Positions 8,681 through 45,875 of a stretch of 45,875 nt of DNA are shown here, piece after piece. Origin of the DNA: an uncultured bacterium. GTDB lineage: Bacteria > Bacteroidota > Bacteroidia > Bacteroidales > CAIXTV01. Where the stretch lies: positions 1 through 45,875 of the forward strand of contig CAIXTV010000301.1 in the NCBI GenBank assembly GCA_903922465.1. Direction: 5' to 3'. Both the position numbers and the translations under genes were made by a program. Below the pieces are notes generated by a model. It saw only the letters and a list, made by a program, of their open reading frames with translations, was not told the origin of the DNA and searched no databases. Each line of letters starts with the position of its first letter. Within the stretch, counting starts at the first letter, position 1.

Positions 8681-8968
8681 CAAATATTAGTCCTCTTCAG
8701 CGACTATTTAGTCTAAAAACAGGACTTTCGACTCCTCGTTTCAGACTAATTAGTCCAATTTCAGGACTAATTAGTCTTGCGGGAGGACTAATTAGTCGGG
8801 GCAGTAAGACTATTTAGTCTGGAAAGAGCCTATTTAGTCTGGGTAATAGGACTAAATAGTCCTATTGATAATACTAATTAGTCTGGAAACAGGAGTATTT
8901 AGTCCTAGGAGGAAGACTATTTAGTCTGGCTATAGGACTAATTAGTCCTCGTGGAGGAGGCATTAGTC
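8681..8968. repeat. palindromic 21-bp tandem array (array 1), 14 units
   Basis: A 12-bp palindromic core GACTAATTAGTC (variants GACTATTTAGTC, GACTAAATAGTC) recurs at 8681, 8702, 8723, 8744, 8765, 8786, 8808, 8828, 8850, 8872, 8893, 8915, 8936 and 8957. Start-to-start steps are 20-22 bases. Perfect GACTAATTAGTC palindromes occur at 8744, 8765, 8786 and 8936. The 8-10 base linkers are related (often TGGAAA-AG), not unique. The right half TAGTC is kept in 13 of 14 units, the left half GACTA in 8. Because steps are not multiples of three, it is not a coding repeat. The unit is far too short for CRISPR. Confidence 0.9.
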
Positions 8969-9075
8969 TGGAAAAAGGATGTTTTTTTGAAACTTATCCA
9001 ATAAAAAAACCATTTTGTAGAGGTTTTTATGGAATCGAAATGGGAATATACTTATTGATTAAGCCTTATTTACTT

Positions 9076-16442: not shown

Positions 16443-16516
16443 GGGGCGTTAGCTCAGTTGGCTAGAGTGTCAGACTGGCAGTCTGAAGGTCATGGGTTCG
16501 ACTCCCATACGCTCCA
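16443..16516 (+). tRNA. tRNA-Ala (anticodon GGC)
   Basis: A complete 74-base cloverleaf. The acceptor stem GGGGCGT (16443-16449) pairs with ACGCTCC (16509-16515). The third pair is G-U, the classic alanine identity element. The D arm is GCTC/GAGT, the anticodon stem TCAGA/TCTGA has loop CTGGCAG with anticodon GGC at 16477-16479, and the T arm is ATGGG/CCCAT with loop TTCGACT. The discriminator is A. The genomic sequence continues ACCT, so the full CCA end is not encoded and must be added. Confidence 0.96.
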
Positions 16517-16533
16517 CCTCAGAAATGTCGAAC

Positions 16534-16568
16534 GGCTTGTAAATCAAATGATTTGCAAGCCTTTTTTT
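16534..16568 (+). terminator. intrinsic terminator of the tRNA
   Basis: GGCTTGTAAATCA (16534-16546) pairs with TGATTTGCAAGCC (16549-16561) with one G-U pair; inner pairs must open to form the loop. A run of seven T follows. It lies 18 bases after the tRNA. Confidence 0.88.
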
Positions 16569-16838
16569 ATTCCATCACATTGCTTCTCTTAAATTTTCAA
16601 GGTCTTATTTCTCAAAAATAAAGTCACATTTAATTTTCATAACACCTTAAATATTTCACGAAAATGGTTTCATTTAATTCAAAATACCTGCTTTTTGCTT
16701 CAAAATATCTCAGTTTAAGTATGTAATAAATGATATTTTCGATAAAAATCGAATTAAAATAAAAGGAAATATTTCTTAGTAAGTAATGAATGCTGAAATG
16801 TAAATAGTTAGAATATCAAAATAAGGAAAAAGCAGCGA
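16569..16838. other. intergenic stretch between tRNA terminator and array 2
   Basis: 270 AT-rich bases with no plausible gene, promoter pair or strong hairpin that I can see. Confidence 0.5.
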
Positions 16839-17109
16839 TAAAACACGGCTAAATGCAAAAAAGCATCTCCTAAGCGCCACAAAGATTTTTTTAAGTGCTG
16901 CGAAATGCAAGTTACGCACTTCGCAACAATTTCGAAGCCGTACGCAGTAAAATATTTTTGCTACGCTGTTTTTTTTAAGCACTGCGCAGCTTTGTAAATT
17001 TTGTTGGCAACAGTTTTTAAGTGGTTCGCAGCAATATTTACGCCGTGCGCAGTAGTTTTTCAGCAGTGCGCAGACGTTTTTAAGCGGTTGGCAGTAATTT
17101 TTCTGCAAT
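16839..17109. repeat. 21-bp tandem array (array 2), about 13 units
   Basis: Unit starts at 16839, 16860, 16881, 16902, 16923, 16944, 16965, 16986, 17007, 17028, 17049, 17070 and 17091, every step exactly 21 bases. The better-conserved units follow GCAG, three variable bases, TTTTT, then AAGC or CAGC and an end such as GTGC. Unit junctions form a palindromic core TGCGCA (for example 16983-16988, 17047-17052 and 17068-17073), decaying toward the left end. On the minus strand it keeps an open frame of cysteine-rich heptads (16776-17108). I regard that ORF as a by-product of the 21-base period unless expression shows otherwise. Confidence 0.88.
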
Positions 17110-17465
17110 ATTTACCTCTTCACACTTCTTCTTTATTTCTACGCATCGCTTATCGCCATTTTAGCAGCACTTTGACCTAAATTAACAGCCTTTAAATGGG
17201 TGATATCATTAAATAATTTCTAAATTAATATGCTTCGTAACTGCTTCTCGGGTCAGCTAAATAGTAATGCTTAAATTATTTTGTATTGAACAGTGCTGAT
17301 ATGTTATATAGTAGCATGTAATTTGAATTTAGTACTGCTTAGTTCTTGTTATTCCCAATTTATTAAGTCTTTAGATGGATTTAATAAATTGATTTGAGCG
17401 ACCTGTTTTTCAAAAGCATCTTATAACTTCAATTAAGTGGACGTAAATTGTTACTTATTTTTGAC
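17110..17465. other. intergenic stretch between array 2 and the gene at 17503
   Basis: 356 bases of AT-rich sequence. I find no open frame with coding character and no strong structure. Confidence 0.5.
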
Positions 17466-17502: not shown

Positions 17503-18084
17503 TTGCATAATCCAATTACATATCGTTCTGATCGCGTCAAGCGACTCATTGCCATGGGCTTATTGGCGGTATTTTTGTTCTATATTTCGGGATATTATCT
17601 TGCCTTTGGTCTATTTCGCCACAGCGTAAGGCTTGAAGCCCGCCAAAACATGCTACATAATTTAAGCGATAAGGATTTGCAAGTGTTTACATCGTTGCAA
17701 ACTTTAAGCAAAGACTTTATCTGGATAGAATATAATAAGGAATTCAGATTTAAGGGCGAAATGTTTGATGTTGTTAAGATTATCAACACTAAAGGAAGCC
17801 TTGAATTAATGAGCATTCCCGATAAAAAAGAGAGCCAACTCATGGCTTCTTTCAGCATAGTGATTGAAAAGGATTTTTCGTGCGAAAAAACGGCCAAATA
17901 TCCTGTTTCTAAAATCATTGAACTGCTTAGCCTCTATAATTATTGGCTTAAAGAAAACAACAGCCTCACTCCTTTTCATTCTGTTGCCAATTTGCTTTTT
18001 TTCTATAAAAGCACTAATCAATGCATTGATCTGCAAGTACCTAAACCCCCTCCTAAAAACAATTTTGGGCTGATATATTCTTAA
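17503..18084 (+). CDS. small single-pass membrane protein of unknown function
   Basis: A 193-residue hypothetical protein if the TTG at 17503 is used (HNPITYRSDRVKRL); the first ATG is at 17554, just inside the membrane segment, so the TTG start is more sensible because it keeps the basic residues before the span. The membrane span is about residues 13-34 (LIAMGLLAVFLFYISGYYLA). The remainder would face the periplasm, contains LSDKDLQVFTSL and ends in VPKPPPKNNFGLIYS. It precedes the TonB receptor by 267 bases on the same strand. Small membrane proteins of this shape occur upstream of TonB receptors in Bacteroidota, but no function can be assigned. Confidence 0.65.
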   Translation: MHNPITYRSDRVKRLIAMGLLAVFLFYISGYYLAFGLFRHSVRLEARQNMLHNLSDKDLQVFTSLQTLSKDFIWIEYNKEFRFKGEMFDVVKIINTKGSLELMSIPDKKESQLMASFSIVIEKDFSCEKTAKYPVSKIIELLSLYNYWLKENNSLTPFHSVANLLFFYKSTNQCIDLQVPKPPPKNNFGLIYS

Positions 18085-45111: not shown

Positions 45112-45120
45112 GATGGAGTT

Positions 45121-45155
45121 TTAAGTGTTAAGTGTTAAGTGTTAAGTTTTAAGTT
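45121..45155. repeat. short TTAAGTG tandem repeat
   Basis: TTAAGTG occurs three times in a row (45121-45141), then partial copies with TTAAG and TTTTAAG. The 7-base unit divides the 21-base period of the nearby array, but the sequences are unrelated. Confidence 0.8.
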
Positions 45156-45441
45156 GGAAGTTGTTGGGATTAAATACTTATACGGAAATACATTTTAAAA
45201 ACGGGGATTTTTATTTGAAATAAAACCTCTCTTATAATTCAATTGAATTTGCAGAAAAGCCGATAGCGTCAATCTATCGGCTTTTTTATTTTGCTTTAGG
45301 GATAGTTTCAACTTACTACTAATATATGGATATAATGTGATGATAAGAGTTGTAATAAACCATTGCATTACAACATTCTATAAATTATTCCTATAGCAAT
45401 CTACTACTCCTGTTTAGGCTTACAATATAGGGGCGAAAAGC
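45156..45441. other. intergenic stretch after the thioredoxin gene
   Basis: About 290 AT-rich bases. The only strong element is the terminator at 45255-45287. No gene is visible until the repeat region beginning after 45441. Confidence 0.5.
45255..45287 (+). terminator. intrinsic terminator downstream of the thioredoxin gene
   Basis: AAAAGCCGATAG (45255-45266) pairs perfectly with CTATCGGCTTTT (45274-45285) around a 7-base loop, followed by further T. It is the first clear stop signal after the uvrD-to-tlpA operon. Confidence 0.88.
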
Positions 45442-45729
45442 ATGATTGATTCAGGGAATATGCTGATTTCAGTCAAAAACATCAAAACGTTTGCTCCTAC
45501 CTTTGAACCTGACGTTGCTTCCGATTCAATTGAAGCACCTCCCTACCCATCTGATGAAGCTCAAGGTTCAAGGGAAATAGTGGCAGCTCTACCCGATGAA
45601 GCTTACGGTTCAAGGGGAATGGCTTCTGCCTCACTCGTTGTATCTCACGGCTCAAGGGGAATGGCTTCAGTCTCACTCATTGCATCTACGACTCAAGGAG
45701 AATGGCTTCAGCCTCATCGGGAACAGTAG
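45442..45729 (+). CDS. possible repeat protein, frameshifted and cut by the window edge
   Basis: A 95-residue frame from the ATG at 45442. It begins MIDSGNMLISVKNIK and then runs into repeats of the form GSRGMASxS (GSREIVAAL, GSRGMASAS, GSRGMASVS). Between 45649 and 45690 one base is missing relative to the 42-base repeat. In the shifted frame the same theme goes on (DSRRMASAS, DSKDMILIS, GSKEMVTIS) and stays open to the window end. Either this is a repeat protein disrupted by a one-base deletion, or the whole region is a noncoding array that is open by chance. There is no signal peptide. I give it low confidence as a gene. Confidence 0.3.
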   Translation: MIDSGNMLISVKNIKTFAPTFEPDVASDSIEAPPYPSDEAQGSREIVAALPDEAYGSRGMASASLVVSHGSRGMASVSLIASTTQGEWLQPHREQ

Positions 45730-45875
45730 TAAACTCAAATGTAGTACCTCAAGATTCAAAGGATATGATTTTAATCTCATCGGGAACAACAGCAAACTCA
45801 AATGTAGGACCTCAAGGCTCAAAGGAAATGGTTACAATCTCATCGGGAACAACAGCAAACTCAAATGTAGGACCT
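45523..45875. repeat. 21/42/63-bp tandem array (array 3), continues past the window
   Basis: Units of 21 bases recur with a TCA at a fixed place. Higher-order copies start at 45565, 45607 and 45649 (42-base steps), 45690 (41-base step), 45753 and 45816 (63-base steps). The last two 63-base units share an identical run of 39 bases, showing recent duplication. The array is still running at the window end. Confidence 0.88.

Follow-up and report, generated by a model that had tools for sequence, protein, structure and literature searches.

Organization of the locus

The window analyzed here, a stretch of 45,875 bases, is the whole of one contig (C301) of a Bacteroidales genome of 5.02 Mb in 312 contigs. 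It contains a diverged, indel-free tandem array of 13 units of 21 bases (16839-17111, unstranded), delineated by autocorrelation, shuffles and the path of the best lag, whose clear core comprises 11 units (16881-17111). The left neighbor of this array is a forward-strand tRNA-Ala (ggc) gene (16443-16518), recovered by both ARAGORN and Rfam, and a terminator-like hairpin with a T tail lies between the two on the same strand (16534-16561). The right neighbor is a forward-strand ORF of 193 amino acids (17503-18084) without a Pfam match. This ORF has one clear paralogous match in its own genome (34% identity), a second, weaker match there that is broken by a stop, and weak matches in 12 of the 60 genomes that were searched for relatives, all of which belong to the same order and come from outside the genus and family of the window.

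The 13 rows fit 16839-17111 with lag 21 throughout, the best lag path being 21 at 247 of 247 positions, and this bears out the description in an earlier note on this DNA of 13 units at a 21-base step with no indel. Identity is 0.536 at lag 21, 0.533 at lag 42 and 0.514 at lag 63, against about 0.25 at other lags, and the column information stands at z = 18 relative to 1000 dinucleotide-preserving shuffles. The strong base divergence reported among the units is equally real, with adjacent units matching at 8-15 of their 21 positions. The best-kept columns are GCA(G), a T-run, AG and a single T, and the T-runs do occupy the middle of the unit, as had been described. The TGCGCA-like palindrome said to mark the unit junctions was overstated, since it is exact at only 3 of the 13 (16983, 17046 and 17067); the remaining 10 carry variants such as TTCGCA, TACGCA and TTGGCA. 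The periodicity is also longer than first noted, reaching upstream to about 16570. In the AT-rich stretch concerned (16570-16838, unstranded), a window scan detects a residual 21-base periodicity, with 21 being the best of the lags 15-30 (z = 4.4), and this probably represents decayed array units. To the right of the array (17112-17300), the 21-base periodicity is marginal (z = 2.5).

Two further arrays of the same class lie in the window. The first (8690-8985, unstranded) is built of GACTAWTTAGTC palindromes recurring each 20-22 bases and displays strong self-complementarity on both strands. Its successive steps are 21, 21, 21, 21, 22, 20, 22, 22, 21, 22 and 21 (average about 21.3), a list that includes an assumed unit at 8723 absent from the list of matches. 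As the steps vary from 20 to 22, this array is not strictly 21, and its 22- and 20-base steps compensate each other. The third array (45117-45875, unstranded) is a 63-base (3 x 21) higher-order repeat that runs to the contig end. Its sequence matches an array at the start of another contig, C10 (83% over 174 bases); the two contigs may be neighbors, or the third array may be dispersed. The third array opens with 7-base AGTGTTA repeats, which are also scattered elsewhere in the genome.

Arrays of constant unit size across the genome

A lag scan over 963 kb of the same genome recovered 95 periodic matches, 60 of which have a period of 20, 21, 41, 42 or 63. Period 21 accounts for 42 of these, 42 for 10, 63 for 2, and 20 and 41 for 3 each, while the other periods are scattered; many matches of period 10-13 lie at the very end of a scanned stretch and are probably artifacts. 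The 60 matches of the class reduce to 52 non-overlapping arrays. Tandem Repeats Finder (TRF), which allows indels, agrees in returning 21 as by far the commonest period, followed by 42 and 63. In TRF, the majority of arrays contain 0% or near-0% indels, and the lag path makes few excursions or none inside them. The scan and the array mask are themselves biased toward indel-free arrays. The recurrent sizes of 20-21, 41-42 and 63 bases lie near two, four and six helical turns of DNA, and three-turn and five-turn periods, though equally in phase, are absent among the scanned arrays.

The unit sequences of the arrays are mostly unrelated to one another. The period is the same in young arrays, with lag identity of up to about 97%, and in old ones, where this has fallen to about 50%. 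The 42-base arrays at L038:8449-8999 and L035:16329-16659 are composed of two alternating 21-base halves; the likeness between the halves of 42-base arrays is at chance level in some (e.g., L035 and L041), and in others the halves are clearly related. When the arrays were searched for a shared recognition motif, no 5- or 6-mer stood out beyond A-rich words. Based on gene calls that simply take the longest ORF, the arrays are intergenic and occur alike between divergent, convergent and tandem gene pairs with no orientation bias. The window array belongs to a genome-wide set of 21-base satellites that are non-coding, lie between genes and keep a constant unit size while varying in sequence. Two candidate associations were rejected: no link of array position to promoters or terminators was found across the arrays, and the search for a mobile element that carries the arrays yielded nothing but short dispersed repeats beside some of them.

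Several contigs of this metagenome-assembled genome (MAG) begin or finish inside a 21-base array (L021, L025, L029, L171 and the end of the window). The genomes studied here are draft MAGs in which arrays are often found at contig ends. The arrays thus break up the assembly, and this genome probably contains more of them than were counted.

In-register evolution between sister species

Among 80 Bacteroidales loci chosen only by a neighboring GH3-family protein, a few possess 21-base arrays. The carriers do not form one group in the GH3 tree, in which the row of the window sits on a long, poorly placed branch, and a minimum of three gains or losses is required to explain their distribution. The number of HU/IHF-family genes does not separate carriers from non-carriers. 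One carrier lineage (G060-G062) consists of lake MAGs, and G061 is about as rich in arrays as the window genome: 297 kb of it contained 15 matches of period 21, 5 of period 42, and a single match for each of the periods 20, 41 and 63. In the GH3 tree, G061 and G062 are sister Bacteroidales species, and it is on their arrays, rather than on the window's own, that the constancy of spacing was checked.

Three orthologous arrays could be compared between these species. The array L190:325-653 aligns over 343 columns with 103 substitutions and no gap, L217:2335-2755 over 487 columns with 88 substitutions and one 21-base gap, and L244:5596-5918 over 330 columns with 65 substitutions and one 231-base gap, i.e., 11 units. 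In total, 1160 columns hold 256 substitutions, and the indels are solely of 21 and 231 (11 x 21) bases. As a control, the other intergenic DNA aligned between these two genomes has, for 519 substitutions, 31 indels whose length is no multiple of 21. At this rate, about 15 odd-sized indels are expected among the 256 array substitutions and 0 are seen, a Poisson probability of about 2e-7 by our own arithmetic on these three aligned arrays. With the flanks of the three alignments as the control, about 8 are expected and 0 seen, for which the same arithmetic gives about 2e-4. A serious caveat is that unit-to-unit conversion inflates the substitution count, so that the indel deficit is weaker than it appears. 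The earlier note had proposed looking for substitutions with no indels between strains; when run on G061 and G062, this comparison yields many substitutions and indels of whole units only, with a substitution count subject to that inflation.

The change at L190 is concerted across the array, with CAAAGTTTCGCTGTTGTGTTG in one species and CAAAGTTTCACTATGAGAATG or an ATAGTATTG variant in the other. At other loci, a 21-base array in one species is represented in the other by different repeats or by an unrelated array. Array sequence evolves more rapidly than the flanking DNA, and whole arrays are sometimes replaced. Together, the data show that these arrays evolve in register: units are gained and lost whole, presumably copied and homogenized as such, and the sequence drifts fast while the spacing stays.

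Relationship to known repeat systems

Subirana and Messeguer have described bacterial repeats that keep a constant size (20-21 or 52 nt) while their sequence varies, of which those of 20-23 nt occur in single species of many bacterial groups, with 40-41 as a related size (PMC8161180). The Bacillus simplex group is named among the carriers of 21-nt arrays (PMC8161180). They remarked on the correspondence to two helix turns, considered the function enigmatic, and proposed as possible roles a polymerizing nucleoid protein or small RNAs (PMC8161180). We infer that 52 nt, the other constant bacterial size, equals about five turns. The window array belongs to this known class of constant-size, variable-sequence repeats. 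It shares with it units of 20-21 nt in at least 4 repeats (11-13 units in the window array), the related 40-41 sizes, the presence of many families of one length and different sequence per genome (52 arrays here), a non-coding location (here intergenic, with no codon signal), and a species-specific distribution that is partly conserved between close relatives. The high internal regularity of the units, which served as the search filter of that study, is seen in most arrays here; however, many have diverged far past such a filter. The arrays further differ in that the 42 and 63 forms are frequent and in that the host belongs to Bacteroidales, which are not mentioned in PMC8161180. No characteristic short signal common to the arrays was found here either; such a signal, which the same study reports in some species only, one of them with 21-nt units, is not strictly defining.

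The tandem repeats of Borgs resemble the present set in comprising many unrelated, fast-evolving arrays across one genome (PMC9879509). However, Borg units are perfect, come in many lengths and lie in about half of the cases in ORFs (PMC9879509), whereas the units here are imperfect, of one length and intergenic, which places them outside the Borg type. Eukaryotic satellite DNA shares with these arrays concerted evolution in register and a higher-order structure, represented here by the 42- and 63-base units; in contrast, the bacterial arrays are short (100-700 bases), intergenic and distributed all over the chromosome. To the published class, the present analysis seems to contribute a high array load in two lineages of Bacteroidales, a comparison between sister species, tests of codon position and of curvature, and evidence that change is concerted and in register. 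Features that are conserved in length and variable in sequence escape ordinary comparative genomics, and the G061/G062 pair makes this enigmatic class directly testable. Such arrays are also a cause of breaks in metagenome assemblies. Should the two-turn step be under selection, they would amount to a bacterial equivalent of satellite DNA that is read by its geometry.

What keeps the two-turn step?

The earlier note held that selection acts on spacing rather than on sequence. The conserved spacing is supported by dozens of arrays and by the sister species. Helical phasing is a possible cause, in keeping with the sizes near two, four and six turns and with the compensating 20/22 steps of the first array, but homology-driven copying maintains a period as well, and periods of three and five turns are missing. 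Our preferred explanation, which we advance tentatively, is that the arrays are in-register satellites whose two-turn spacing is constrained, with a low-specificity, oligomerizing DNA-binding protein as the candidate agent. Units would be copied and homogenized in register, and the putative protein would form an oligomer on one face of the helix, with a period of two turns, in a nucleoid or architectural role. As it would work only with units in phase, the spacing would be constrained, and the sequence could drift freely provided that the step stays the same. Dyad symmetry is modestly enriched in the arrays (mean z 0.97; top rank in 6 of 56), as is self-complementarity, to the same degree on either strand (mean z about -1.4 relative to column-shuffled arrays). 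These properties fit DNA contacts better than a transcript. Intrinsic curvature, considered as an alternative selected property, is unsupported: on a table of curvature values, real units are no more curved than units shuffled at the same period (mean z 0.18), and bending is therefore not selected beyond what any 21-base repeat provides. This result counts against the preferred explanation, as do the HU/IHF gene numbers, the lack of a common signal beyond A-rich words, the missing three- and five-turn periods, the inflated substitution count and the bias of the scan toward indel-free arrays.

Homology-driven copying would keep any existing period, which makes two neutral accounts serious rivals. 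Two observations alone, that 21 recurs in unrelated sequences and that indels are scarce, argue for more than such copying. The first of these accounts, which we consider rather unlikely, is a mutational ruler: a duplication mechanism, such as slippage in replication or repair that a bound protein holds in place, would copy about 21 bases (two turns) at a time, and the arrays would be neutral thereafter, with the period reflecting their birth and not a function. That near-identical young arrays already have periods of 21, 42, 20 or 41 is consistent with this proposal, as is the turnover of array content between the sister species. The ruler alone leaves unexplained the absence of small indels in old arrays of about 50% identity.

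The second account is a neutral single lattice, in which one ancestral 21-base array spread, and unequal exchange and conversion kept its period while the sequences diverged beyond recognition. An all-versus-all comparison of 53 arrays recovers 10 similar pairs at E < 1e-6, against 0-4 among column-shuffled arrays; some arrays have therefore spread or share ancestry. The concerted unit change at the orthologous locus also accords with this account. Nevertheless, the majority of the 53 have no detectable relative in the same comparison, the flanks reveal no carrying element beyond the shared short repeats, and the carriers are scattered in the GH3 tree. The same size moreover recurs in unrelated phyla (PMC8161180), and on balance we regard a single lattice as unlikely. 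Another proposal to which we assign a low probability is a dedicated two-turn ruler in these Bacteroidales, in the form of a DNA-bound filament or of a machine for duplication or repair with a footprint of 21 bases. It would both generate and maintain 21-base intergenic lattices regardless of their sequence, which would serve as a satellite-like chromosome scaffold read by length alone.

A further rival to the preferred model of a constrained two-turn DNA step is RNA: the arrays would be transcribed, and each unit would serve as a hairpin or sponge element in a non-coding transcript. Transcription of such repeats has a precedent in the 52-nt arrays of Bacillus coagulans (PMC8161180, PMC8625621), and, relative to dinucleotide shuffles, the arrays show better folding (mean z -2.5 and -2.3). 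However, this gain does not differ between the strands and is reduced when the shuffles preserve the repeats, the window array itself reaches only z -1.2 and -1.3 on its two strands, and no promoter excess was found when looked for. A non-coding RNA would also leave the two-turn DNA step without a reason, and we consider this explanation quite improbable.

The iterons of plasmid origins are direct repeats with an approximately two-turn spacing, and this, together with the palindromic nature of some arrays such as that of GACTAWTTAGTC, might suggest that every array offers operator or iteron sites to a specific protein of its own. Iterons, though, have one sequence recognized by one initiator protein, whereas the unit sequence here differs per array and one specific protein cannot bind them all. 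Further, no initiator family was found in the neighboring ORFs scanned, the right-hand neighbor ORF of the window array has no recognizable Pfam domain, and arrays occur in every gene orientation, making this reading very improbable. The least credible proposal, raised in the earlier note and now rejected, is that 21 bases represent the seven codons of a repetitive protein: although an ORF of 110 amino acids spans the window array on the minus strand, it has no Pfam match, codon-position variability is significant (p < 0.05) in just 1 of 46 arrays (p = 0.75 for the window array), 28 of the 46 have stops in all six frames, and the existence of 20- and 41-base arrays means that the frame is not preserved.

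Other repeats in the sister species

A dispersed repeat of about 200 bases adjoins one array of G061 (L190:622-873) and is found in about 35 places in G062. G061 additionally has repeats with a 43-base period at L083:1-141, L190:16093, L193:1 and L194:7612. One such 43-base unit, built on a GGCAAACTACTGTAGGTTGCC core, is a palindrome that occurs at two or more loci.
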